From: Aquabacterium sp. CECT 9606
Lineage (GTDB): Bacteria; Pseudomonadota; Gammaproteobacteria; Burkholderiales; Burkholderiaceae_C
Reading direction: 5' to 3'
Assembly: GCF_918741295.1 (NCBI RefSeq)
Contig: NZ_CAKKNB010000002.1
Span: forward strand, 496,001-560,000
Length of the DNA stretch: 64,000 nucleotides
Position 1 is the stretch's first letter, and each line of letters begins with the position of its first letter. This document shows positions 24,533-38,930 of this stretch, piece by piece. The notes beneath the pieces were generated by a model. The model saw only the letters and a list, made by a program, of their open reading frames with translations. It had not been told where the DNA came from and did not search any database. Made by a program: the position numbers and the translations under genes.

Positions 24533-27500
24533 ATGCCCGAAAAGACTTCCCTTGAGACAGCGCATTTCCAACGTGTTCTGAAGCGGCACCTTGCCTTGCC
24601 CCTGGCTGTAGGCGCGTTCAGCGCCATGGTGTTCATCGGGTTGATCTTTTTCCTGCTCTCGCAGCTCAATTGGGTCGAGCACACACAGCGCGTCATCGGC
24701 AATGCCAACGAGCTGAAAACGGTGATCGTGGACCAGGAGACCGGCACACGCGGCTTCCTGCTCACGGGCGAGGACAAGTTCCTGTCGCCCTACAACCTGG
24801 CCAAGCCCAAGATGGCCTCCGAGCTGGCGAGCTTGAAAGCGCTGGTGCAAGACAACCAGCATCAGCTGGACCGGCTCAACCGCATCGAGGCACTGCAAAG
24901 GCAATGGGACGAGTTTGCCCAGCGCATCATCGAGCTGCGGCGAAGCCAGGGCGACTACTTGAGCATCATCCGGGCGGAAACTGGCAAGCAGCTGTTCGAC
25001 GAAATCCGCCGTGAAGTGCGCGACTTCCTCAACGAGGAAGACAAGCTCCTGCAAGAGCGCAATGAAATCGCGCGCAGCACCACCTTTTGGGTGATTGTGT
25101 CGTACGTGAGCCTGGTGCTGATCCTGAGCGGGCTCATCGCGCTGAGTGGGCGTCGTCAGATCATGACCCTGTCCGAGAACTACGGCGATGCGCTGCGCCA
25201 GCATGTGCTCAGCACCAAGGCTTTGCAAGAGAAGGCGTGGTTTCGCATCGGCCAGACCCAGTTGGCCGAGCGCCTGCTGGGGCAGCTGGCCTTGCCGGTG
25301 CTCAGCCGCCAGGTGCTGGAGTTCATGGCCGGCTACCTGGGCGTGGCCGTGGCCGCCTTGTACGTGCGAAACGCCGCGGGCAAGCTGCACCGCGTGGGGA
25401 CCTATGGTTTCAGCAAAGAGCTGGAAGCGCAAGAGCAAAGCCTTGACCTTGACCACGGCCTGGTGGGTCAAGTGGCCAAGGATGGGCAGCTCAAGCATAT
25501 TCCGCAGGTGCCCGATCACCACTTCCAGGTCACCACGGGCCTGAGCACGGGCGCCCCCACCGACGTGGTGCTGCTGCCCATCAGCAACGATGGGCAGGTC
25601 AATGGCGTGATCGAGCTGGGCTTCATGCGGCCCGTGGTGGAGCGGGATCTGGAGCTGCTGCGCATCCTGGCCACCAACGTCGGGGCCTCGGTCGAGGCGG
25701 CGCAGTACCGGCAGCGACTGCAGGATGCGCTCGAAGAAACGCATCAGCTCAATGAAGAGCTGCAGACCCAGCAGGAAGAGCTGCGCACCGCCAACGAAGA
25801 GCTGGAAGAGCAGTCGAGGGTGCTGAATGAATCGCAGACCAACCTGGAGCACCAGCAGGCCGAGCTCGAGCAGATCAATGTGCAGCTGACCGAGCAGGCC
25901 CTGCTGGTCGATCGGAAGAACGAAGCCCTCAAGCAGGCGCAGAGCGAACTCGAGAACCGGGCTGACGAGCTGCAGCGAGCCAGCCGCTACAAGTCCGAAT
26001 TCCTGGCCAACATGTCGCATGAGTTGCGCACGCCGCTGAACAGCTCGCTGATCCTGGCCAAGCTCTTGTGGGACAACAAGGCGGGCAACCTCAACGAAGA
26101 GCAGATCAAGTTCGCCAAGACCATCTATGGCGCGGGCAATGACCTGCTCACGCTGATCAATGACATCCTGGACATTTCCAAGGTCGAAGCTGGCAAGCTG
26201 GAGCTGACGCCTCAGGCGGTGTCGTTGAACAGCCTGGTGGAGTCCTTGCGCATGACCTTCACGCCGCTGGCCGACGACAAGCACCTGGCGTTCGACATCC
26301 AGGTGGCGGCCGATGCGCCCGTGTCGATCTTCACCGACCGCCAGCGGGTCGAGCAGATCCTCAAGAACCTGTTGTCCAACGCCATCAAGTTCACCGACAA
26401 GGGCAAGATCTCGATGACGGTGCAGGGCCGTGCCGATGGCCGCCTGGCCTTTGCCGTGTCGGACTCGGGCATTGGCATCGCACCGGAACAGCAAGAGGTC
26501 ATCTTCGAAGCCTTCCGCCAGGCCGATGGCACCATCAACCGGCAGTACGGTGGCACGGGCCTGGGCTTGTCCATCTCACGCGAACTGGCGGGCTTGCTGG
26601 GCGGCGCCATCTACGTGGACAGCGAGCCCGGGCGGGGCAGCACCTTCACGCTGGACCTGCCGCAGCGGTGGGTGGACACCAGCGGCGCCGACACCACGCC
26701 GCCGCCCGCGCCCACCCCGCGCCCCGCGCCTGCCAGCGCGCGCGCGCTGCCGGCTGCCCCTGTCGTGGCCAACCCTCCGCCCGAGAGCGAGACCATCCCA
26801 AGCTTTGCCGACGACCGGCAGGCCATCTCGGCGGCAGCGCGCCTGGTGCTGGTCATCGAGGACGATCCCCAATTCGCCGCCATCCTGTTCGACCTGGCCC
26901 ACGAGATGAATTACCAGTGCCTGGTGGCCCACGGCGCGGCCGAAGGATTCGAGCTGGCCACGCGGCACCTGCCCCACGCCATCTTGCTGGACATCCGCCT
27001 GCCAGACGACTCGGGCCTGGCGGTGTTGCAGCAGCTCAAGGACCACCCGCAGACGCGCCACATCCCAGTGCACATCGTGGCCGCCGAGGATGTCAGCGAG
27101 GTGGCGCTGCACATGGGGGCCATCGGGTTCGCCATGAAGCCCACCACACGTGAAGCCTTGAAAGAGGTCTTCAACAAGCTGGAAGAAAAAAGCGCCAAGA
27201 AGGTCAAGCGCGTGCTGGTGGTGGAAGACGATGCCCGTCAGCGCGACAGCATCGTGCACCTGATCGGCGACGACGACATCGAGATCGCGGCCGTCGAGCG
27301 CGGCGAGCAGGCCCTGGACCTGCTGCGCGAGACGGTGTTCGACTGCATGGTCATCGACCTGAAACTGCCGGACATGGATGGCAGCGAGTTGCTGGAGCGC
27401 ATGACGCGCGAGGACATCTGCTCCTTCCCGCCCGTCATCGTCTACACCGGCCGCAACCTGACCCGCCAGGAGGAGACCGAGCTGAACAAGTATTCGCGCT

Positions 27501-28021
27501 CCATCATCATCAAGGGAGCGCGTTCGCCCGAGCGTCTGCTCGATGAAGTGACGCTGTTCCTGCACACCGTCGAGTCGCAGCTGTCGGCCGAACGCCAGAC
27601 CATGCTCAAGACCGCGCGCAACCGCGACAAGGTGCTGGAAGGCCGCAAGGTGCTGCTGGTCGATGACGATGTGCGCAACATATTCGCCCTGACCAGTGCC
27701 CTGGAGCAGCGCGGCCTGCTGGTCGAGGTGGGCCGCAATGGCTTCGAAGCCCTGGCCAAGCTGGACGAAGTGGGCGACATCGACCTGGTGCTGATGGACA
27801 TCATGATGCCCGGCATGGATGGTCTGGAGGCCACGCGCCGCCTGCGGGCCAACCCCGCGTTCGCCAAGCTGCCCGTCATCGCGATCACGGCCAAGGCCAT
27901 GAAGGATGACCAGGAGCAATGCCGCCGCGCGGGCATCAACGACTACCTGGCCAAGCCGGTGGAGCTGGAACGCCTGTTCTCGCTCTTGCGGGTCTGGATG
28001 CCCGCCATGCAAAGGCTTTGA
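24533..28021 (+). CDS. CHASE3-GAF hybrid histidine kinase with three receiver domains
   Basis: This 1162-residue membrane kinase starts at 24533. TM1 is about 20-42 and TM2 about 184-204, with a CHASE3 periplasmic domain between them. A GAF domain (about 235-395) and a long coiled coil rich in Gln and Glu (about 395-485) follow. HisKA carries H496 in LANMSHELRTPL, and the HATPase has QYGGTGLGLSISREL. After a Pro-rich linker (about 725-760) come three receivers (Asp in ILLDIRLPDD, MVIDLKLPDMDG and VLMDIMMPGMDG). CheR, CheB and another kinase gene follow in the same operon. It is probably the central sensor of a phosphorelay linked to methylation control. Confidence 0.94.
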   Translation: MPEKTSLETAHFQRVLKRHLALPLAVGAFSAMVFIGLIFFLLSQLNWVEHTQRVIGNANELKTVIVDQETGTRGFLLTGEDKFLSPYNLAKPKMASELASLKALVQDNQHQLDRLNRIEALQRQWDEFAQRIIELRRSQGDYLSIIRAETGKQLFDEIRREVRDFLNEEDKLLQERNEIARSTTFWVIVSYVSLVLILSGLIALSGRRQIMTLSENYGDALRQHVLSTKALQEKAWFRIGQTQLAERLLGQLALPVLSRQVLEFMAGYLGVAVAALYVRNAAGKLHRVGTYGFSKELEAQEQSLDLDHGLVGQVAKDGQLKHIPQVPDHHFQVTTGLSTGAPTDVVLLPISNDGQVNGVIELGFMRPVVERDLELLRILATNVGASVEAAQYRQRLQDALEETHQLNEELQTQQEELRTANEELEEQSRVLNESQTNLEHQQAELEQINVQLTEQALLVDRKNEALKQAQSELENRADELQRASRYKSEFLANMSHELRTPLNSSLILAKLLWDNKAGNLNEEQIKFAKTIYGAGNDLLTLINDILDISKVEAGKLELTPQAVSLNSLVESLRMTFTPLADDKHLAFDIQVAADAPVSIFTDRQRVEQILKNLLSNAIKFTDKGKISMTVQGRADGRLAFAVSDSGIGIAPEQQEVIFEAFRQADGTINRQYGGTGLGLSISRELAGLLGGAIYVDSEPGRGSTFTLDLPQRWVDTSGADTTPPPAPTPRPAPASARALPAAPVVANPPPESETIPSFADDRQAISAAARLVLVIEDDPQFAAILFDLAHEMNYQCLVAHGAAEGFELATRHLPHAILLDIRLPDDSGLAVLQQLKDHPQTRHIPVHIVAAEDVSEVALHMGAIGFAMKPTTREALKEVFNKLEEKSAKKVKRVLVVEDDARQRDSIVHLIGDDDIEIAAVERGEQALDLLRETVFDCMVIDLKLPDMDGSELLERMTREDICSFPPVIVYTGRNLTRQEETELNKYSRSIIIKGARSPERLLDEVTLFLHTVESQLSAERQTMLKTARNRDKVLEGRKVLLVDDDVRNIFALTSALEQRGLLVEVGRNGFEALAKLDEVGDIDLVLMDIMMPGMDGLEATRRLRANPAFAKLPVIAITAKAMKDDQEQCRRAGINDYLAKPVELERLFSLLRVWMPAMQRL

Positions 28022-28851: not shown

Positions 28852-29463
28852 ATGACGCCGCACCCCAGCCCATCATTCGATCCCGAGTCGCCGGCCATCC
28901 GGGCCGTGGCCATTGGTGCGTCGGCGGGCGGCGTCGATGCCTTGATGAAGGTGCTGGTGGGCTTGCCCGCTTCGTTCAGCTTGCCCATCCTGGTGGTGCT
29001 GCACCTGCCCGAAGACCGGCCCAGCCGCCTGCCCGAGATCCTGGCCTACCGGCTGGAGATCCCCGTGCACGAGGCGATGGACAAGCAACCCATCGAGCCC
29101 GGCGCGGTGTACGTGGCGCCCACCGGCTACCACCTGTCGGTCGAGGGCGACCTCACCCTCTCGCTCAGTGGCGAAGAGCCGGTCAATTACTCGCGGCCCT
29201 CCATAGATGTGCTGATGAGTTCAGCGGCCGATGCCTACGGCCTGGGCCTGGTCGGCATCTTGCTGACTGGCGCCAACCACGATGGCGCGCAAGGCATGGC
29301 GCACATCAAGGCGCGTGGCGGCTGGACGGTGGTGCAGAACCCCGATCAGGCGCAATCCGACACCATGCCCCTGGCCGCCATCCGAAAGCAGGCGCCCGAC
29401 CTGATCCTGTCGCTGAGCGACATCCACGCATTGCTGCTTAAACTGGGACGAGAAAAATCATGA
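28852..29463 (+). CDS. cheB: CheB-type methylesterase domain protein without receiver
   Basis: A 203-residue protein containing only the CheB methylesterase domain. The catalytic triad is S24 in AIGASAGG, H51 in VVLHLPED, and D144 in LLTGANHDGAQG. It removes methyl groups from, or deamidates, receptor glutamates. The usual N-terminal receiver that gates CheB activity is missing, so control must come by other means. The receiver-kinase encoded next overlaps it by four bases (ATGA at 29460) and could play that part. Confidence 0.93.
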   Translation: MTPHPSPSFDPESPAIRAVAIGASAGGVDALMKVLVGLPASFSLPILVVLHLPEDRPSRLPEILAYRLEIPVHEAMDKQPIEPGAVYVAPTGYHLSVEGDLTLSLSGEEPVNYSRPSIDVLMSSAADAYGLGLVGILLTGANHDGAQGMAHIKARGGWTVVQNPDQAQSDTMPLAAIRKQAPDLILSLSDIHALLLKLGREKS

Positions 29464-30635
29464 CCGACGACCGCACCAAGCTGCTGATCGTGGACGACTT
29501 GCCGGAAAACCTGCTGGCGCTCAAGTCCCTGATCCAGCATGAAGACCACTTGGTTTACCAGGCCTCGTCCGGCGAAGAAGCCTTGGGGCTGTTGCTGGAA
29601 CACGAGTTCGCGCTGGCGATCCTGGATGTGCAGATGCCCGGCATGACGGGCTTCGAGTTGGCCGAGCTGATGCGTGGCACCGAGAAGACCCGCCACATCC
29701 CCATCGTGTTCGTGACGGCGGCCAACCGCGACCGCAACCACGCCTTCAAGGGATACGAAAACGGTGCGGTCGATTTTCTGTACAAGCCTCTGGACAGTTT
29801 TGCCGTGAAGAGCAAGGTCAGCGTGTTCGTGGACCTGCACCGCCAGCGCCAGCAGGTGCAGCGCCAGGTTGAAGCGCTGGAAGAAAGCCGCCGCCAGCAG
29901 CAAGCGCTGTTGACCGAGCTGCAGGCCACCAAGGAGGAGTTGCAGAATGCCTTGCGGATGCGCGACGACTTCATGTCGCTGGTGGCGCATGAATTGCGCA
30001 CACCCTTGAGCGCCTTGTCCATCGACATTCAGGTGCGCCAGAAGCACCTTGAGAAAGGCAATGCGGACTTCTTCGGGCCCCAGCAGCTGTCGGGCATGTT
30101 CGCCAAGTACCGGCGCCAATCACAGAGCATGACGCGCCTGATCGAGGACATGCTGGATGTGTCGCGCATCCGCAATGGCAAGCTGTCCATCCGCCCCTCC
30201 ACCACCGACCTGTCGCGTTTGCTGGAGCGCCTGGTGGGCGACTTCCCCAGGCTGGACAGCGACAGCGTGATCAGCCTGAACATCCAGCCGGGCGTGACGG
30301 GCCTCTGGGACGAGTTCCGCATCGAGCAGGTGGTCACCAACCTCTTGAGCAATGCCATGCGCTACGGTGCAGGCAAGCCGGTGGAGGTGATCCTCACGGC
30401 CTCGTCCGATGTGGCGCGCATCGAGGTGCGCGACTGGGGCATCGGCATCGCGCCCGATGCGCAGCGGCGCATCTTCGAGCAGTTCGTTCGCGTGGCCGAT
30501 CCGGCCGCCCACCGTGGCCTGGGCCTGGGGCTGTACATCACCCAGCAGCTGGTTGAGGCGCACCAGGGCACCATCAGCGTGGACAGCAAGCTGGGCGAGG
30601 GCTCGGTGTTCGTCGTCACATTGCCTTTGGCGTGA
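29460..30635 (+). CDS. Receiver-histidine kinase (REC-HisKA-HATPase)
   Basis: A 391-residue soluble kinase. The receiver (about 5-125) carries D56 in LAILDVQMPGMTG. A coiled coil (about 125-168) leads to HisKA with H177 in SLVAHELRTPLSA, then the HATPase (DWGIGIAPDAQR, GLGLGLYITQQL). It ends the kinase-cheR-cheB operon. Its receiver is a natural acceptor for phosphate from the CHASE3 kinase (inference). The 3' end overlaps the convergent ABC transporter gene by 20 bases. Confidence 0.92.
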   Translation: MTDDRTKLLIVDDLPENLLALKSLIQHEDHLVYQASSGEEALGLLLEHEFALAILDVQMPGMTGFELAELMRGTEKTRHIPIVFVTAANRDRNHAFKGYENGAVDFLYKPLDSFAVKSKVSVFVDLHRQRQQVQRQVEALEESRRQQQALLTELQATKEELQNALRMRDDFMSLVAHELRTPLSALSIDIQVRQKHLEKGNADFFGPQQLSGMFAKYRRQSQSMTRLIEDMLDVSRIRNGKLSIRPSTTDLSRLLERLVGDFPRLDSDSVISLNIQPGVTGLWDEFRIEQVVTNLLSNAMRYGAGKPVEVILTASSDVARIEVRDWGIGIAPDAQRRIFEQFVRVADPAAHRGLGLGLYITQQLVEAHQGTISVDSKLGEGSVFVVTLPLA

Positions 30636-32802
30636 GCAGTGGCGTCACATTCATGCGACCGGCGTCAGGCTCATCGTCTTCTGGCGGGGTCTGCTCCACC
30701 AGCTTGACCAGCTTGCCGCCCGACAGCACGTGGATCTCGTCGCCTTCGCTCAGGCTGTGCTGCCGGTGCGTGATGATGAACCGGCCACAGCCCAGGTGGT
30801 TGATGGCCTCTTGCACATGGCGTTCGGTCTCGAAATCGAGGTGGCTGGTGTATTCGTCCAGCAGCAAGAAGCGAGGCTGCTTGTAAAGCGCCCGGGCCAG
30901 CAGCAGGCGTTGCTTTTGCCCGCCCGACAACGTGGCCCCCATGCCGCCAACCAGGGTCTGGTAGCCCATGGGCATGCGCTGAATGTCTTCGTGAATGCAG
31001 GCTTGCTGGGCGGCGAGCATCACCTTCTCGGGCGTGGCCTCGGTGTCGTTCATGGCGATGTTGTCGTAGACCGAGCAGGTGAACAACTGGTCGTCCTGGA
31101 ACACGGTGCCCAGCACCGAGCGGAAGGCCTCGGAGCCGATGCGGCTGATGGGCACGCCATTGACCAGCACCTCGCCCGATTCAGGCGTGACCTGGCCCGA
31201 CAGCACCTTCAGCAAGGTGGACTTGCCGCAGCCTGACGGGCCCACCACCGCGATGGCCTGGCCACTGTGCAGGGTCATGCTGATGTCGTCCAGCACCGGC
31301 GCTTCACCCATCGCGTAGCGGAAGGTGACGTTGCGCAGTGACAAGGTCATCGGGCCATCGGTCTTCAAAGACGCTTCAGCCTGGGCAGGCGAGGGCGGTT
31401 CGGGCTCGGTCAGCACGATGTCGGCCAGGCGCTCGCCTTGCAGTTTCAACAGGCGCAGGTTGATGACCCGCTCCAGCAGCTCGGAGGCCCGCTGCAGGAA
31501 CTGGCTCTTGTAGGCCAGAAAGGCCACCAGCATGCCGATGGAGAACTGCTCGTCCAGGATCATGCGTGCGGCCAGGTAGATCACCAGCGATTGCTCGACC
31601 GCGCTGATCAGGCCGTTGACGCCCTGGTACAGCAGGCTGATGCGCTGCTGCTTGACCGAGGCGTTGACCATGGCCACCTGCTGGTTCATCCAGCCGCCCA
31701 CGCGCCAGCCCGGCTTGGCGAAGAACTTGATGGCGGCCACGCCGCGCAGGGTCTCCAGCAGGTAGGTCTGCGCGTTGGCTTCACGCACGATGGTCTCTTC
31801 GGTCGCTTGCCGGTAGGGCTTGAAGACGGCAAAGCGCACGATGGTCTGCAGCACGGCCACGGCCAGCACCACCATGGCCATCGTGGGGCTGTAGAAGAAC
31901 ATCAGGCCCAGCGTGATCAGGCTGACCGCGCCATCGAGCACCACCTCGACCAGGTGGTTGGTGATGGTGTCCTGGATGGTGTGGACCGAGCCGAAGCGCG
32001 ACAGCACATCGCCCGTGTGGCGCTTGTCAAAATAGGCCAGCGGCAGCTTGAGCATGTAGCGGAACACGTTGGCGCTGGACGACACGCGCCACGACAGGCT
32101 GGCGCCCAGCACGATCCAGGTCCGCACCAGGCGCGTGCCCAGCGACATCACCGCCAGCAGGAAGATGCCGATGGCCAGCACGGCCAGCAGCGGCGCATCG
32201 CGCGTGACCACCACGTCGTCGATGATCCACTGGCTGAGCATGGGCATGAGGATGCCGAACACCTCCAGCACGATGGAAAGAAGCGCCATCTGACCGAAGG
32301 CGCGCCACAGGCCGCGCTGGCCGGTGAACAAGAGGCGCAGGTCGAAGGGTGTCTTCTCTTGTTTCTTCTCGAAGCTGGTGCTGGGCGACAGCTCCAACGC
32401 CACGCCGGTGAAGTGCGGGCTGGCTTCCTTGAGGGTGAGGGTGCGCTCGCCCAGGGCGGGGTCGAGGATGGTGATGCGTTGCGAGTCGGCCTTGGTCAGC
32501 ACCACGAAGTGGTTCAGGTTCCAGTGCAGCAGGCAGGGGGTCTGCAGCTGCGGCAGCTCGTCCATCTCCAGGCGCACGGCCCGGTTGGCAAAGCCCAGGT
32601 GCTCGGCGATGTTCATCAGGCGGGCCAGCGTGGCACCACGCGATGACAGCTCGAAGCGGCGCCGCAAGGTCAGCAGGTCGGTCTCGTGGCCATGGGCGCT
32701 GGCGATCATGGCCAGGCAGGCCAGGCCGCACTCGGCCGCTTCCGATTGCAGGATCAGCGGTGCTTGTTTGCGCGGCCACAGGGAAAGAAGGTTGGTGCGC
32801 AT
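30616..32802 (-). CDS. C39-peptidase-containing ABC exporter for double-glycine peptides
   Basis: A 728-residue bacteriocin-type exporter (CvaB/LagD class). The N-terminal C39 peptidase domain has an intact triad: C25 in SEAAECGLACLAM, H98 in HWNLNHFVVL, D114 in ITILDPALG, with Q19 at the oxyanion hole. Six helices span about 155-440. The ATPase shows VVGPSGCGKST, LSGGQKQRLLLARAL and FLLLDEYTSHLD. It cuts leaders after Gly-Gly and exports the peptide. The ATG at 32802 shares one base with the hlyD stop. A matching double-glycine peptide gene lies at the head of the cluster (35655-35834). Confidence 0.96.
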   Translation of the reverse strand: MRTNLLSLWPRKQAPLILQSEAAECGLACLAMIASAHGHETDLLTLRRRFELSSRGATLARLMNIAEHLGFANRAVRLEMDELPQLQTPCLLHWNLNHFVVLTKADSQRITILDPALGERTLTLKEASPHFTGVALELSPSTSFEKKQEKTPFDLRLLFTGQRGLWRAFGQMALLSIVLEVFGILMPMLSQWIIDDVVVTRDAPLLAVLAIGIFLLAVMSLGTRLVRTWIVLGASLSWRVSSSANVFRYMLKLPLAYFDKRHTGDVLSRFGSVHTIQDTITNHLVEVVLDGAVSLITLGLMFFYSPTMAMVVLAVAVLQTIVRFAVFKPYRQATEETIVREANAQTYLLETLRGVAAIKFFAKPGWRVGGWMNQQVAMVNASVKQQRISLLYQGVNGLISAVEQSLVIYLAARMILDEQFSIGMLVAFLAYKSQFLQRASELLERVINLRLLKLQGERLADIVLTEPEPPSPAQAEASLKTDGPMTLSLRNVTFRYAMGEAPVLDDISMTLHSGQAIAVVGPSGCGKSTLLKVLSGQVTPESGEVLVNGVPISRIGSEAFRSVLGTVFQDDQLFTCSVYDNIAMNDTEATPEKVMLAAQQACIHEDIQRMPMGYQTLVGGMGATLSGGQKQRLLLARALYKQPRFLLLDEYTSHLDFETERHVQEAINHLGCGRFIITHRQHSLSEGDEIHVLSGGKLVKLVEQTPPEDDEPDAGRMNVTPLLTPKAM

Positions 32803-34052
32803 CACAGTTTTCCGCTGAAGGCGAAGAGGGGGTCGAGCATCCAGCGGACCAGGCGGCGCCTGTCGATCTCGATGTCGGCCGTGAGCGTGTGGCCCGGCCT
32901 CAGGGCGATGTCGGTGCCATAAGCGCGCACCTTGGCCTGGTCCAGGGCCACGCGCACGATGAAGACCGCGCGCCGGTCGGTGCCACCATTGCCGCTGGCC
33001 AGGGGCACGTCGGTTTGCGAGACGCTGCGCACCGTGCCTTGGTACTGCCCGAAGCGCTGATAGGGAAAGGCGTCATAGCTGATGCGCACGCGCTGGCCCG
33101 CCTTGATGAAGCCGACCGACGTGCTCGGCAGGTAAAGGGTGGCCTCCAAGGCCGAGCGCGTCGGCACGATGGAAGCCAGTGTGACGTTGGCGTTGACGCT
33201 TTGGCCCGGTGTGGCCAACAAGCCCGACACCACGCCATCGACCGGGGCCTTCAGCAGAACGCGCCTGGCGCCATGGCGCTGCACCTCTTCTTGTTGCAAG
33301 CCCAGCAGGTCGCGGTCCAGGCCAGCCTGGTCGATGCGGTGCTGGGCTTGCAGGCGTTGGCGCTCATCCTGTGATGAAGCCAGGTCGGCCTCGGCCGCGC
33401 TGCGCTGGCGCTTGAGTGTTTGCAAACGCGCGGTCTGGTCCAGCAGCAGTTGGCGTTGCTGCTCGTACTGCAGGTCGGAGATGATGCGTTCGTCCAGCAG
33501 GGGCTTGAACTGGTCCACCAGCTTGCGGGCCGATGCAATCTGCTGTTCTTGCAGCTTGATTTCCTCGGCCAGGGTCAAGAGGTCGCGGCGGCTTTGGGCC
33601 ACGCGCTGCTCCAGCGCGGCCAGGGAGGCGGTGCTCGCCTGGGCCTGGCCCTCGGCCTGATTGCGCATCTGGCTGCGCTGGCTTTCCAGGTTCTGCTGCA
33701 ACAGCGCTTGCGTGCTGCCCGCGTCGCTGAAGCGCTCGTTGCTGATCTCGGCGATCACGTCGCCGGCCTTCACGGCCTGGCCTTCGGTGACCAGCACACG
33801 CTGCACGATGCCGGGCTCCAGGGGCACCACCATGGCCACGCCATCGCGGGGTTGCACCACGCCCTGCACGCGCTCCTTCTTGGTGTAGTGGCCGAAGACC
33901 AGCACCGCCAGCACGAGCGCGGCCAGGCACAGGAAGAAGAAAGTGAGGCGGCCAGCGCCCACCGGGCGGATGTCGATGGAGGGGCCGGATGAGGTGTCTG
34001 AACGCGCGTCCAGAACCTCCTGGCGGAACAGGGATTGGGCGGGGGGGCTCAT
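32802..34052 (-). CDS. HlyD-family periplasmic adaptor protein
   Basis: A 416-residue membrane-fusion protein linking the inner-membrane exporter to the outer-membrane channel. One transmembrane helix lies at about 35-57 (LTFFFLCLAALVLAVLVFG). A lipoyl-like half-motif (VVPLEPGIVQRVLVTEGQAV) leads to a long coiled-coil hairpin (about 115-270). The second lipoyl half (APVDGVVSGLLATPGQSV) and a beta-barrel domain end it. Its ATG overlaps the tolC-like stop (ATGA, 34049-34052), so the export genes are translationally coupled. Confidence 0.94.
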   Translation of the reverse strand: MSPPAQSLFRQEVLDARSDTSSGPSIDIRPVGAGRLTFFFLCLAALVLAVLVFGHYTKKERVQGVVQPRDGVAMVVPLEPGIVQRVLVTEGQAVKAGDVIAEISNERFSDAGSTQALLQQNLESQRSQMRNQAEGQAQASTASLAALEQRVAQSRRDLLTLAEEIKLQEQQIASARKLVDQFKPLLDERIISDLQYEQQRQLLLDQTARLQTLKRQRSAAEADLASSQDERQRLQAQHRIDQAGLDRDLLGLQQEEVQRHGARRVLLKAPVDGVVSGLLATPGQSVNANVTLASIVPTRSALEATLYLPSTSVGFIKAGQRVRISYDAFPYQRFGQYQGTVRSVSQTDVPLASGNGGTDRRAVFIVRVALDQAKVRAYGTDIALRPGHTLTADIEIDRRRLVRWMLDPLFAFSGKL

Positions 34053-35599
34053 GGCGTGCTCTCTGCCAGCAAGGGCAAGGGGGCTGTGTCGAACAGGGGT
34101 GTCAGCGGCGCGACATGGTCGGCGTCCAACTGGTCCAGCAAGGCCAGGATGTTCACTTGGGCCGACAGGGCATGGATGCGCGCGGTGACCAGGCTTTGCC
34201 TGGCGGTGTAGATCTGCTGCTGGGCGTTGAGTAGGTCCAGGTTGGTGCGCAGGCCGGCCACAAAGGCCTTGCGCAGCGCCTCGTACGTGGCCGAAGCGGT
34301 TTGCTCGACCTGGCGCTGCAGCGTGATCACCTGCCGGGCCTGCGACAAGGTCTGGTAGGCATCGCGCAGGGCGGCTTCGACCTGGGCTTGCGCTTCATCA
34401 CGCCGGGCCTGGGCCTGGATCAGCAGGGCGGCGGATTCACGCGTGCGGCCCTGCTGCACACCGCCCGTGAACAAGGCCCAGTTCAACTGCACGCCGATGG
34501 CGCGTTCCCGGGTGGTCTGGCGCTGGCTGAAGCCGTCCAGCTGGGGCACTTCCCGGACCAGGCTGGCGCTGGCCACGGCGTCCACGGTGGGTTGCCAGCG
34601 CTCGGCGGTGCGAGCCTGGTCGGTGGCCGTGGCCGTGGTGATCTGGGCGAGGGCGTCGCGCAAGGGTGGATGGCGGCTGGGGGCCAGCAGCAGTGCTTCT
34701 TCCAGCGTGGTCACCACGGCGGGCCAATGGGTCTCCTCACCTCGCAGGCCGGCGGGCAGCACCACGGTCTGGCCGCTGAGCCGCTCCAGGGTGAGGTGCT
34801 GCGTGGCCAGCCGCGTGTCCAGTTCTTGCACGGCGGCGCGGGTCTGGTCGATGCGGGTGCGTGTTTCCAGCACGTCCAGGATGGTGCCGGCACCAGCTTG
34901 CAGGCGCCGGTCGTTGATGCGCCATTGTGCTTGCAGCAAGTCTTGCTGAGCCAGGGTGAGGCGCCGCTGTTCGGCCGCTTCGATGGCGCTCAGGTAGGCC
35001 ACGCTGAGTTCGCGGGCCACGTTGGCCCGGTTGCCTCTAGCCTGCCATTGCGCCTGGTCGGCCTGGGCGGCCTGGGCCCGGGCGTTGGCCTGCTCGGCGG
35101 CGCGCCACAACGGCCAGGTGGCCGACATGGACAAAGCGGTGGCGGGGGTGTTCACCGTGGTCTCGTTGATCTGCTGGTGGCGTCGGCTGGCACTGGCGCT
35201 GGCATCGGCCCGGGGCATCCAGGCGGTGGCCCAGGCTTGTTGGCTCATGGCCTGCGCGGCCCGTGCACCAGCGTCAAAGGCGCGGTTGGAAGCCGCTTGC
35301 TGGTCGGCCGCCAGCAGCATCAGGGGCCAGGGTGTGGGGCCCTTGCCGGCTTGCTGGCCCGCGGCTGGCGCTGGCATTGAAGCGTCGCGCGAGGCGGCAG
35401 GCAGGGGATCCTGCTGCATGCCCAGGGATGTGGCCCAGTGCAATGCCAAGGCGCCCGAGGCCAGGGTTGGCAGCGAGGTGAGCAGCAGGCTCAATGCCAG
35501 CGCGAGTTGGACCGCCGTGGCCGGGCGGGCATGGCCAAGCCCGCGAGGTTCATCGCGGAGGACGGGCATGGAGGGAACGGGATCCGGGCGTCTGGACAT
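34049..35599 (-). CDS. TolC-family outer-membrane channel protein
   Basis: An outer-membrane efflux protein of 516 residues if the ATG at 35599 is used, or 506 from 35569. A basic N-terminus precedes a hydrophobic export segment (AVQLALALSLLLTSLPTLASG). Two OEP-type halves rich in long helices follow, with repeated Ala/Gln heptads and the landmark GVQLNWALFTGG. It completes a type I secretion system with the HlyD and C39-ABC proteins. The upstream ATG lies directly behind the U-tract of a strong terminator, leaving poor room for a ribosome site, so the true start is uncertain. Confidence 0.88.
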   Translation of the reverse strand: MSRRPDPVPSMPVLRDEPRGLGHARPATAVQLALALSLLLTSLPTLASGALALHWATSLGMQQDPLPAASRDASMPAPAAGQQAGKGPTPWPLMLLAADQQAASNRAFDAGARAAQAMSQQAWATAWMPRADASASASRRHQQINETTVNTPATALSMSATWPLWRAAEQANARAQAAQADQAQWQARGNRANVARELSVAYLSAIEAAEQRRLTLAQQDLLQAQWRINDRRLQAGAGTILDVLETRTRIDQTRAAVQELDTRLATQHLTLERLSGQTVVLPAGLRGEETHWPAVVTTLEEALLLAPSRHPPLRDALAQITTATATDQARTAERWQPTVDAVASASLVREVPQLDGFSQRQTTRERAIGVQLNWALFTGGVQQGRTRESAALLIQAQARRDEAQAQVEAALRDAYQTLSQARQVITLQRQVEQTASATYEALRKAFVAGLRTNLDLLNAQQQIYTARQSLVTARIHALSAQVNILALLDQLDADHVAPLTPLFDTAPLPLLAESTP

Positions 35600-35600
35600 G

Positions 35601-35633
35601 AAAAAAACCCGCCTGGCTGCGTGGCCGGGCGGG
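35601..35633 (-). terminator. Intrinsic terminator between peptide gene and tolC-like gene
   Basis: On the - strand a 10-bp GC-rich stem (GCC-CGGGCGGG-type arms at 35608-35617 and 35624-35633, one G-T wobble) with a 6-base loop is followed by seven T residues at 35607-35601. It sits about 20 bases after the peptide stop codon and immediately before the tolC-like start. It should end most peptide transcripts while some read-through supplies the export genes, a common way to make more peptide than exporter. Confidence 0.85.
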
Positions 35634-35654
35634 CTTGTCAAACCTTCAAGCGGC

Positions 35655-35834
35655 TCAGGGAGCAGCCTTCTTCGTCACGTAAGGGATCTTCGTGGTCGAG
35701 AACAAATTGATCGCGAAGATGCCAGCGTTGATCAGGGGCACGCCGTAAGAGTTGTACTCGGCGCGGTGGATCGCGTCGATGAGGCTTTCGCCGCCGCTGA
35801 CTTGGGACACTTCCTGGGTGTTCAGAACTTTCAT
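35655..35834 (-). CDS. Double-glycine leader peptide, putative class II microcin/bacteriocin or signal
   Basis: A 59-residue precursor starting at the ATG at 35834, preceded by AAGGA. The leader is MKVLNTQEVSQVSGG. Counting back from the cut it has L-12, E-8, V-7, V-4, G-2 and G-1, the consensus for C39 peptidases. The predicted mature peptide has 44 residues, no cysteine, an acidic/polar first third (ESLIDAIHRAEYNSYG), a hydrophobic centre (VPLINAGIFAINLF) and a basic tail (KIPYVTKKAAP). It heads the export cluster at 30616-35599. I recognise no known bacteriocin in the mature part, and no immunity gene is evident next to it. It could instead be a signalling peptide. Confidence 0.85.
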   Translation of the reverse strand: MKVLNTQEVSQVSGGESLIDAIHRAEYNSYGVPLINAGIFAINLFSTTKIPYVTKKAAP

Positions 35835-35908
35835 GTTTTTTCCTTGTTTCAATGGATTTTTGAACGTGCCTTTGCAGGGCACATGAGGAATTTAATGATG
35901 ATCGTTCA

Positions 35909-35931
35909 GGGTTCCCATGTCGGGGAATCCC
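35909..35931. promoter_or_regulatory. Inverted repeat upstream of the double-glycine peptide gene
   Basis: GGGTTCCC (35909-35916) and the complementary arm ending at 35931 form an 8-bp stem with one bulged base and a 6-base loop, 75-97 bases upstream of the peptide start. The surrounding intergenic region (35835-36066) is clearly more AT-rich than its neighbours and must hold the peptide promoter, but no convincing -35/-10 pair was found. The repeat may be an operator or a leader hairpin. Confidence 0.4.
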
Positions 35932-36066
35932 TGGCGATCCTTCAGATCAGCGGAGGAGATACCCTTAAAATGGGAAGTTTGGAAGTTCAGTTTGTCAGAT
36001 GTTGATCCCGCCGTCGCCAATTAACCCCGATGGGCGTCGCGTTGACGCGTCACCGCCTTGTCAAAA

Positions 36067-37097: not shown

Positions 37098-38930
37098 TCA
37101 GGCCGGCAAGGTAGCCCGGGGCAGGTGCAGGGCCAATGTCTGCGCCAGATCCTCCGAACGGAAGGGCTTGGACAGTTGGCCGTTCATGCCGGCATCACGG
37201 CAGCGGTCGCCGCACAGGTCAGGGGCGTTGGCCGTCAGCGCCACGATGCTGATGGGGCCGGAGCCTTCCAGTTGTTCGCGGGCGCGGATTTGCCGCGTGG
37301 CCTCGAAGCCATCCATCACGGGCATTTCGCAGTCCATCAGCACCAGGTCTGCGCGCTGGTGGGCCAGCCAGTCAACGGCTTCGCGGCCATTGCCCAGCAT
37401 GGTCACCTTGACGCCCAGCAACTGCAGTTCGGCCTGCGCCACCAGGGCGTTCACGGGGTTGTCTTCCACCAGCAGCACGTGGGGCTCGGGCAGGTGGTCG
37501 GCCCAGGCGGGCTGGCCGTTGGCGTTGCCCCCCTCGATCGCCACGGCCTGGGTGGTCCGCTCGTCGTGCACGATGGGCAAGGGCAACGAGAAGGTGAACA
37601 GGGAGCCCACGCCGACTTCGCTGCGGCAATCCAGGTCACCGCCCATGGCGCGGCACAGCTCGCGTGAGATGGCCAGGCCCAGGCCGGTGCCGCCATAGCG
37701 GCGTTGGTAGGTGCCTTCGGCCTGGTGGAAGGCGTCGAACACGCGGGCCTGTTCGTGAGACGGGATGCCAATGCCGGTGTCCTGCACCTGGATGGTGACC
37801 TGGCCGCTGGCGGCATCGCGCCTGGCGTGCAGGCGCACGAAGCCCTTGCCCGTGAACTTGACCGCGTTGCCCAGCAGGTTGTGGAGCACCTGCCGGATGC
37901 GGACCGGGTCGCCCATGACGAACTCGTCGCGGTCCAGCTCAAGTTGCACTTTCAGGGCCAGGCCGTTTTCGGTGGCGCTCACGGCCGTGGCGTCCGCCAC
38001 CTCCGCCAACAAGGCGCGCAGCTTGAAGGGGCGCTCGTGCAAGGGCAGGCTGCCCGCTTCCATGCTGGAGAAATCAAGGATGTCGTTGATGACGCTGACC
38101 AGGTGTTCGCCTGAACTGCGCACCAGGTCCAAGCGGTGCACGGCCTGCGCATCCTGCTCGCGCTGGCGCAGCAGGCGGACCAGGCCAAGCATGCCGTGCA
38201 AGGGGGTGCGCATTTCGTGGCTCATCGTGGCCAGGAAGCGCCCCTTGGTGTCGCTCAGAATCTGGGCCTGCTGCAGTGCCTGGGCCTGCGCCCGGGCCAC
38301 CATCTCGCTTTGAAACCGCAGCCGCAGGAGTTCAACGATGCGCAGATTGGAGCGCCGCGCCTCCATGATCAAGGCCACCATCAGCCCGCTGACCGCCAGG
38401 GCGCAAAACCAGCCCAGGCCATCGTGGCGGGTCGAGGCGTACACGGCATTGGGCAAGGAGATGGGCACGATGAACAGCGCGGCCGTGATGAAATCGACGT
38501 GGAGCATGCAGGTGGCCAGGGCCGCCACCCCGATCAGCACGCTGATGCTGACGACGGCAACGTCCAACTGCTGGATGGGGGTCACAGCCCAGCCCAGCGC
38601 GCTCCAGGCGATGCTGTCCAGGACGGCCAGGAACCGGTAGATGTGCAGATCGTGCCGGCTTGAGGGGCCCGACGCCGACCTGCGCAAGCGGGAATGGGCC
38701 ACGCGGGCGATGGAAATCAGCAAACGCGCGGCGAACCAGGCCGCCAGCAGCCGGTGCGGCACCTTGTCCTGCAGCACCGCGACCACACCGGCGGCCGTCA
38801 CCACGCCAAAGGCCATCGAGAAGGGCAGCCTTTCGTGCAGGGCCTTGTGCAGGCCTTCTCTGAGTCGCGCCTCCATTTCAGGGTCGGGCACAGCGTTCGT
38901 GGCAATGGGTGACAGGGCGGAGGTCGACAT
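37098..38930 (-). CDS. Membrane hybrid histidine kinase with C-terminal receiver
   Basis: A 610-residue kinase. The N-terminal 195 residues form about six hydrophobic helices with no recognised sensor name. A short coiled coil (about 205-228) leads to HisKA with H238 in LATMSHEMRTPLHG and HATPase with RYGGTGLGLAISREL. The receiver (about 480-600) has its Asp in LVLMDCEMPVMDG. It diverges from the ABC exporter pair across 167 bases. There is no adjacent response regulator, so output probably goes through a separate HPt and regulator. Confidence 0.92.
   Translation of the reverse strand: MSTSALSPIATNAVPDPEMEARLREGLHKALHERLPFSMAFGVVTAAGVVAVLQDKVPHRLLAAWFAARLLISIARVAHSRLRRSASGPSSRHDLHIYRFLAVLDSIAWSALGWAVTPIQQLDVAVVSISVLIGVAALATCMLHVDFITAALFIVPISLPNAVYASTRHDGLGWFCALAVSGLMVALIMEARRSNLRIVELLRLRFQSEMVARAQAQALQQAQILSDTKGRFLATMSHEMRTPLHGMLGLVRLLRQREQDAQAVHRLDLVRSSGEHLVSVINDILDFSSMEAGSLPLHERPFKLRALLAEVADATAVSATENGLALKVQLELDRDEFVMGDPVRIRQVLHNLLGNAVKFTGKGFVRLHARRDAASGQVTIQVQDTGIGIPSHEQARVFDAFHQAEGTYQRRYGGTGLGLAISRELCRAMGGDLDCRSEVGVGSLFTFSLPLPIVHDERTTQAVAIEGGNANGQPAWADHLPEPHVLLVEDNPVNALVAQAELQLLGVKVTMLGNGREAVDWLAHQRADLVLMDCEMPVMDGFEATRQIRAREQLEGSGPISIVALTANAPDLCGDRCRDAGMNGQLSKPFRSEDLAQTLALHLPRATLPA

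Follow-up and report, generated by a model that had tools for sequence, protein, structure and literature searches.

The window analysed here is a stretch of 64,000 nucleotides from Aquabacterium sp. CECT 9606 (contig NZ_CAKKNB010000002.1, positions 496,001 to 560,000 of the forward strand). On its minus strand lies an operon in which a 59-codon precursor of a double-glycine (GG) peptide is followed, in the order of transcription, by a hairpin with a T-run, tolC, hlyD and the gene of a C39 peptidase-containing ABC transporter (PCAT). In window coordinates its features are:

35655..35834, minus: precursor peptide gene, type A, 59 amino acids (aa); ATG start, AAGGA ribosome-binding site
35790..35834, minus: double-glycine leader MKVLNTQEVSQVSGG; E 4.3e-6 by a leave-family-out leader model, putative cleavage after GG
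35658..35789, minus: mature part of 44 aa without Cys; one helix predicted at low confidence for 16-47 (precursor numbering), then a loose tail
35835..35993, minus: upstream region common to the second genomic copy and the copies in G034, G014, G004 and G039
35835-35898, minus: last ~60 nt of that region, 5' leader segment predicted to fold over the ribosome-binding site
35601..35636, minus: intrinsic-terminator-like hairpin and T-run in the precursor/tolC gap, -21.6 kcal/mol; in 4/4 type A exporter loci
34049..35599, minus: TolC-type outer membrane channel (OEP, PF02321); start ATG 35599 or 35569
32802..34052, minus: HlyD-type adaptor (HlyD_3, PF13437)
30616..32802 (ATG), minus: C39-peptidase ABC exporter (PCAT); GTG start at 32805 possible, catalytic residues intact

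The exporter, its precursor and a second copy

The exporter carries the Peptidase_C39, ABC_membrane and ABC_tran domains and its partners carry HlyD_3 and OEP, all far above the Pfam cut-offs; C39, ABC membrane and ATPase domains with HlyD and OEP partners are the set that marks PCAT type I secretion. The C39 site keeps its Gln, Cys, His and Asp. Neither Cys nor His is present in two further C39-like ABC proteins detected in this genome, so that one functional double-glycine exporter is apparent. Full-length matches of the exporter in the Protein Data Bank (PDB) include ComA and chains named 'ABC-type bacteriocin transporter', and assignment to the NHLM/NHLP exporters fails (NCBIfam TIGR03796, 480.6 bits vs a cut-off of 853.3). 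tolC shares 4 bases with hlyD, which in turn shares 1 or 4 with the exporter gene, depending on the start chosen, and the tolC reading frame is open from TTG 35641. The initial annotation of this DNA had described a whole type I export system that comes with a double-glycine peptide of its own, from an unknown family, and gene, domain and leader evidence support that description; the intact triad it reported is there, its C25 being right with the ATG start and C26 with the GTG start.

The precursor is a real, conserved coding peptide. A leader model made from 17 leaders of other cargo families only, with no row from type A or from the related type B, picks it out of 745 window open reading frames at E = 4.3e-6, the next frame scoring E = 1.6. 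In the mature part the ratio of nonsynonymous to synonymous differences (pN/pS) is 0.38 for type A (ten copies) and 0.18 for type B (nine copies). The A and B peptides are homologous, with the common motif LIDAIHxxEWNxYGxPLxN and a Gly content of 2-9%. The claim that the family is an unknown one agrees with the comparison to microcin and bacteriocin models, in which nothing rose above cut-off: the window peptide has no NCBIfam match, its best Pfam match is PF10439 (12.7 bits vs a cut-off of 27.1, on the leader), and no sequence relative was found in the PDB (best E 0.12). Because the predicted structure is too weak (mean pLDDT 65.8, pTM 0.35), a fold search was not warranted.

The initial annotation had overlooked the hairpin before tolC and also a further gene for the peptide. 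This second type A copy, 95% identical, lies about 200 kb away in the same genome (G000:C2:331085-331261), flanked on one side by an efflux-gene cluster and a homocysteine-methyltransferase-like gene and on the other by ybeY- and phoH-like genes (all by eye). Both copies, and those of G034, G014, G004 and G039, have about 160 bp of upstream sequence in common, and the likeness between exporter-side and separate sites stops at the stop codon. Given that type A occupies the separate site in several species (G004, at a contig end, G039, G021, G015 and G025), a comparison of these sites suggests that the copy beside the exporter probably arose later, by insertion, and that the separate site came first. 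A mobile origin was considered and rejected: 72,556 plasmid records gave no match, none was confirmed in viral contigs, and 50,697 phage records gave a single weak one (E 0.4, 39.6%). As a side observation, the separate copy in G000 and G039 is followed by a gene for a protein of about 262 aa that has, by eye, a secretion signal and an anchor-like C-terminus (L031:8139-8927; L038:10293-11078).

Hairpins with T-runs follow 19/23 exporter-side precursors or precursor pairs, the four type A loci among them, and 0/6 separate type A copies; the count has no shuffle control, and a separate consensus scan did not list the window hairpin. A fold covering the ribosome-binding site is predicted for 7/7 close type A copies (z -1.1 to -3.3) and not for three distant ones (z 0.9, 0.9 and -0.9). 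Over 40 precursors the fold z averages -1.06 vs -0.19 for 164 control genes (p 7e-5), the sequences compared being related and not independent. In the consensus of the 5' leader no pair is changed on both sides, so there is no covariation support and the predicted fold over the ribosome-binding site in the close type A copies stays a suggestion. Rfam gave no match near the gathering score for an RNA element at the locus, and no sigma-70 consensus was found in the region. A promoter word shared across cargo types was rejected, as the best 9-mers reach 6 families and were equalled by 1/3 mononucleotide shuffles.

Distribution of the peptide and cargo families of the exporter

An alignment model of the A and B peptides finds them in 18/42 Aquabacterium genomes at E <= 1.1e-8, and among 399 genomes sampled evenly from the order the window genome alone matches; within the genome sets searched, relatives of the peptide are confined to Aquabacterium. 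Two matches were dropped (G039:C1:415915, E 0.49, antisense to another gene; G017:C6:45209, E 0.10, inside another gene) and one, in G032:C137 (E 0.15), was left out of the reading. A 33% match at E 0.036 in G061, from another family, was set aside, being unconfirmed by the alignment model.

Exporter orthologs at 65% identity or more are present in at least 25/42 genus genomes. A further exporter genome, G015, is 53% complete and its operon is cut by a contig end, where tolC and hlyD were read beside a precursor. A model of the leader only finds 41 places at E <= 0.01 in 26 genomes, namely the 25 exporter genomes and G015. Leader-bearing precursors thus occur in 26/26 genomes with the exporter and 0/16 without it (Fisher p = 6e-12). 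The positive half of this co-occurrence is partly by construction, since many of the model leaders were collected beside exporters; the empty half, and the precursors that lie far from the exporter, are free of that bias.

A precursor with this leader adjoins tolC in 23/24 loci that have both neighbours on one contig. Adjacency was left unscored in G041 and G019, whose exporters run to contig ends, and in G003 it is deduced from two contigs with fitting ends (C7 end, C8 start), one bearing the precursors and the other the exporter. One TGA lies inside the match in the second PCAT of G018 and in the PCAT of G006. The exporter of G002, at 44% identity, was excluded from the orthologs; two different small GG-type frames with low coding score lie upstream of it (L095:8221-8634). 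The initial annotation had proposed that a genuine peptide should recur beside the exporter in relatives, and so it does: the same peptide is found there in G034, G014 and G004 and the homologous type B in seven further species, one close species, G039, lacking it at that position.

Orthologous exporters adjoin differing mature parts behind a common leader. Across nine cargo representatives the leader has 53% identity and the mature part 28%, equal to the shuffled value of 28%. The exporter-side cargos are:

A: G000 (the window genome), G034, G014, G004
B: G013, G028, G016, G011, G001, G029, G022
C: G021, G025, G015
C2, Cys-rich: G024
D: G031, G032, G006, G017
E1 and tandem pair E2+G: G018, two exporter loci
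Tandem pair E2+G: G003, across a contig end
F: G005, G038

At E1, and at several of the B loci, precursor and tolC are divergently oriented. Several genomes hold separate precursors that adjoin no exporter; G024 has five of these plus the exporter-side one. In G021, G025, G015 and G024 the A or B peptide is kept at a separate site and the exporter slot holds another cargo.

We placed the exporter in a rooted tree that comprises 16 genus exporters, 13 from other genera and the genome's two inactive ABC proteins. All genus orthologs fall into a single clade (96/100). The B-type exporters branch off at its base or close to it, at forks (92/100 and 91/94) that do not reach the level starred by the program, on a tree with very long outgroup branches; the A exporters group with that of G021, a type C genome (88/95). 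An earlier tree, from which the inactive ABC proteins were absent, did not resolve the backbone.

In other genera the nearest exporter relatives have 40-48% identity. In 200 genomes of the family, with five candidates scored per genome, 68 have an exporter match at E <= 1e-150, two of them Aquabacterium. Exporters of this sister lineage often have, about 1.3-1.9 kb upstream, precursors with Trp-terminated tails. Among 13 sister loci read, nine hold such a precursor, found with a filter that requires a final Trp; L111 has a different GG precursor, in L113 none was found, and contig ends truncate L119 and L120. Run over the 200 genomes, a model made from the nine gives 30 matches at E <= 5e-4; 28 of these lie 1.3-1.9 kb upstream of an exporter, and none falls in the three Aquabacterium genomes of that draw (G000, G026, G038). 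Of the further places found by the model and read, 17/20 end in Trp, which brings the total to 26/29 precursors (L112, L114-L118, L121-L123, L136-L155; e.g. L118:5383-5622 and L147:265-516), with tails of the form xPxx(G/T)W after the GG leader. Two or more hexapeptide units are present in 7/29; within one precursor the units are identical in protein (7/7) with at least one synonymous codon change (7/7), and the seven repeated units are all mutually different. Nine of the precursors have no Pfam or NCBIfam match above cut-off, and six of the hexapeptides were absent from the literature searched. By their sequence pattern the sister hexapeptides look like species-specific oligopeptide pheromones, which supports a signalling role for the wider exporter lineage and says nothing direct on the window peptide.

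Constraint, immunity and the possible role of the peptide

A question remains, is the peptide of the window a toxin or a signal? Gram-negative double-glycine peptides are mostly read as microcins, and of peptide pheromones of Gram-negative bacteria we know few worked examples. The initial annotation had left the choice between a new microcin, with immunity from an unrecognised source, and a secreted signal. We find that the mature part of type B is the most conserved part of its operon. In the seven species that carry type B beside the exporter its mean pairwise identity is 94.5%, vs 78% for the PCAT, 73% for the type B leader, 62% for HlyD and 48% for TolC, and between G013 and G011 the mature part has a synonymous rate (dS) of 1.0 and a nonsynonymous rate (dN) of 0.02. 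The B peptide is unlike the other cargos in that it exceeds its PCAT in identity, whereas the mature parts of D (68%), F (61%) and C (84%) fall below their own PCATs (90%, 86% and 94%).

Immunity was screened by the rule of PMC9746304, as given in its available text, which takes the three nearest genes on each side and products of 30-250 aa. At the window 0/6 nearest genes fall in this range, so the rule yields no immunity candidate, just as the initial annotation had seen no evident immunity gene there. Over 29 precursor loci (22 exporter-side and 7 separate, out of 42 known precursors) there was no convincing immunity gene and nine loci had no candidate at all; four loci had fewer than six neighbours, and the gene caller was home-made with a limit of 30 aa, so that a very small immunity gene could escape it. 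The candidates at the other 20 loci are, by eye, regulators, ybeY, other proteins with no membrane stretch and one second precursor; two candidates, a 195-aa protein of G018 and a 94-aa protein of G011, do have a notable hydrophobic stretch, and each begins much as a signal peptide would. Of the features that define class II microcins, the system has the GG/GA leader, the PCAT with its Cys/His/Asp triad, and the membrane fusion protein with TolC; it has neither a nearby cognate immunity protein nor a match to the verified microcin families. We do not file the window peptide under the class II microcins.

A class II microcin-like bacteriocin, exported in the same way and killing or inhibiting relatives, with immunity from an unlinked gene, the exporter itself or a resistant target, is nonetheless the main rival, and we regard it as quite possible, if short of probable. 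It would account for a conserved leader joined to clade-unrelated cargos (53% vs 28%), for several precursors per genome (up to six in G024) and for the tandem two-peptide pair E2+G in G018, G024 and G003; conserved export parts with variable cores are also the microcin pattern in the available text of PMC9746304. It fits poorly with the lack of an immunity candidate at the window and of a convincing one at the other 28 loci, with a type B mature part that is the most conserved part of its operon, with a near-identical peptide made by related species and with the absence of any microcin or bacteriocin model match above cut-off. The accessory cargos are another matter, as they may well be bacteriocins carried by the same exporter. 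The E2+G pair (L087:10782-11241; L110:4273-4601; L104:5884-6320) resembles two-peptide bacteriocins, and adjoins the exporter in G018 and is distant from it in G024; G024 also has, far from the exporter, two identical Gly-rich 59-aa precursors in tandem (L105:5242-5765).

The surroundings of the operon bear on a further proposal. Upstream of it lies corA and then a hybrid kinase; downstream is a convergent kinase gene, preceded by cheB- and cheR-like genes. Since kinase genes flank the operon (24533-28021, named by eye, 29460-30635 and 37098-38930), the peptide could be a ligand of the neighbouring hybrid histidine kinases, a link suggested by the initial annotation. That link found no support: for the two nearest kinases, the exporter has homologs of at least 50% identity as neighbours in no species outside its own clade (G034, G014, G004, G039); the kinases near the exporter loci of G003, G018 and G019 have 28-41% identity, the remaining loci have none, and A and B peptides occur elsewhere without homologs of these two kinases. 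As close homologs do not track the exporter, this was rejected as the principal reading and we think it most improbable. A TetR-like gene (by eye) adjoins type B at 9/9 type B loci read, though not at the divergent B2 locus of G019, and is a candidate regulator; TetR relatives at 46-48% identity also occur in genomes without B. Alongside it, the type B loci (L042-L049, L100) hold acyl-CoA-dehydrogenase-like genes (by eye), even where the exporter lies elsewhere (G024).

It is conceivable that the peptide instead coats or links cells, as a surface or biofilm factor by analogy with EbfG1-4, and does not bind a regulatory receptor. The parts are the same as in the available text of PMC4997328 (several small GG proteins and a C39 transporter), the predicted helix with its loose tail would suit such a role at its low confidence, and in G000 and G039 the separate copy has as its neighbour the gene whose product shows, by eye, a secretion signal and an anchor-like C-terminus. 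The near-invariance of type B exceeds what a surface coating would seem to need, however, and the neighbourhoods listed, read by eye, showed no gene recognisable as related to amyloid or matrix. We consider this role unlikely.

Over the sequences compared, the pattern of A and B is better matched by a signal-like role, or one at the surface, than by a microcin. We tentatively favour a secreted signal-like peptide exported via its own PCAT, a reading we would place a shade below even. The precursor would be cut after GG by the C39 domain of the co-encoded exporter, and the 44-aa peptide would leave the cell via HlyD and TolC; for cleavage and export we infer from the intact parts and the co-occurrence. 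The same exporter would also serve the second copy elsewhere in the chromosome, and the hairpin terminator between the precursor and the same-strand tolC would yield more peptide than exporter. Outside the cell mature A/B would act on a conserved target in its own kind, as a genus-level signal and not a poison; such a signal would need no immunity partner, and type B would be expected to change less than the exporter. Speaking for this signal are the co-occurrence, the adjacency of precursor and tolC, the loss of Cys and His from the two other C39-like ABC proteins, the constraint on type B, the lack of a convincing immunity gene, the persistence of A/B at separate sites, the basal or near-basal position of the type B exporters and the signal-like hexapeptide tails of the sister lineage. 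Of the two options first offered, the microcin has lost ground, having no class-defining immunity gene and a strongly constrained type B, and the signal fits better, unproven as it is.

Several observations weigh against the signal. Within the young window clade the mature part (96.6%) is on a par with the PCAT (97.2%) and HlyD (94.9%) and exceeds TolC (86.3%), and type A is more relaxed between clades (dN/dS about 0.43 for the window and G025). In G039 the exporter is kept, but the gap from corA to tolC measures only about 140 bp and contains no precursor, and 8/26 exporter genomes have no A/B peptide. Other cargos (Gly-rich E1, tandem E2+G, Cys-rich C) look bacteriocin-like. No receptor or response gene was identified for the peptide, and the flanking kinases are unlinked to the exporter outside the window clade.

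A wider version, which we find doubtful as a whole, would make A/B the core pheromone of Aquabacterium and place its exporter on one branch of a lineage, as yet unrecognised, for Gram-negative oligopeptide signalling within this Burkholderiales family: the sister branch would export species-specific Trp-ending hexapeptides, and the Aquabacterium exporter would have taken over a longer new signal and later gained accessory cargos. In this one exporter lineage a constrained core peptide stands next to interchangeable accessory ones, and no immunity genes were seen, so that the choice between signal and toxin is open to experiment; if the signal is true, the peptide would be a pheromone of Gram-negative bacteria. 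In the available text of the literature searched, Aquabacterium and microcin were mentioned together solely in a review on pancreatic cancer, and among the matches listed for bacteriocins and double-glycine peptides none mentioned Aquabacterium.

Comparison with known systems

A survey by Dirix in 2004 reportedly dealt with the double-glycine peptides of Gram-negative genomes, and systems related to this one could be among them. In the RaxX / RaxSTAB system of Xanthomonas the role of exporter belongs to RaxB. As here, a precursor of similar length (60 residues) has a dedicated exporter in that system (PMC6637879, available text), a likeness by description with the sequences unaligned; a difference is that no sulfotransferase is among the genes scanned or read beside the window operon. 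The class II microcins with a CvaB-type PCAT are alike in the GG leader, the triad PCAT, the membrane fusion protein adaptor, TolC and a small core; here, by contrast, no immunity gene is seen alongside, the core stays below the microcin-model cut-offs and type B exceeds its exporter in conservation (PMC9746304, available text).

Cdz, the contact-dependent bacteriocin of Caulobacter, likewise sends small peptides through type I secretion, and the Gly-rich E1 cargos of related species recall its glycine zippers; its leader is described as RTX-like and it has an immunity gene, CdzI, whereas here no such gene is seen and A/B are not Gly-rich (PMC5380434, available text). The Nap peptides of Neisseria are alike by description, with the peptides unaligned, in pairing GG peptides with a C39 peptidase gene, and no competitor killing is reported for them in the available text; their island differs in its FapF-type channel, candidate immunity gene napI and regulator (PMC11798529). 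In Synechococcus elongatus the EbfG1-4 / PteB system also joins several small GG-motif proteins to a C39 transporter, and its role is a non-antibiotic one, linked to biofilm, the word 'immunity' being absent from the main text as available (PMC4997328). The EbfG cores are described there as having no homologs in other cyanobacteria, whereas the A/B core recurs in the 18 Aquabacterium genomes.

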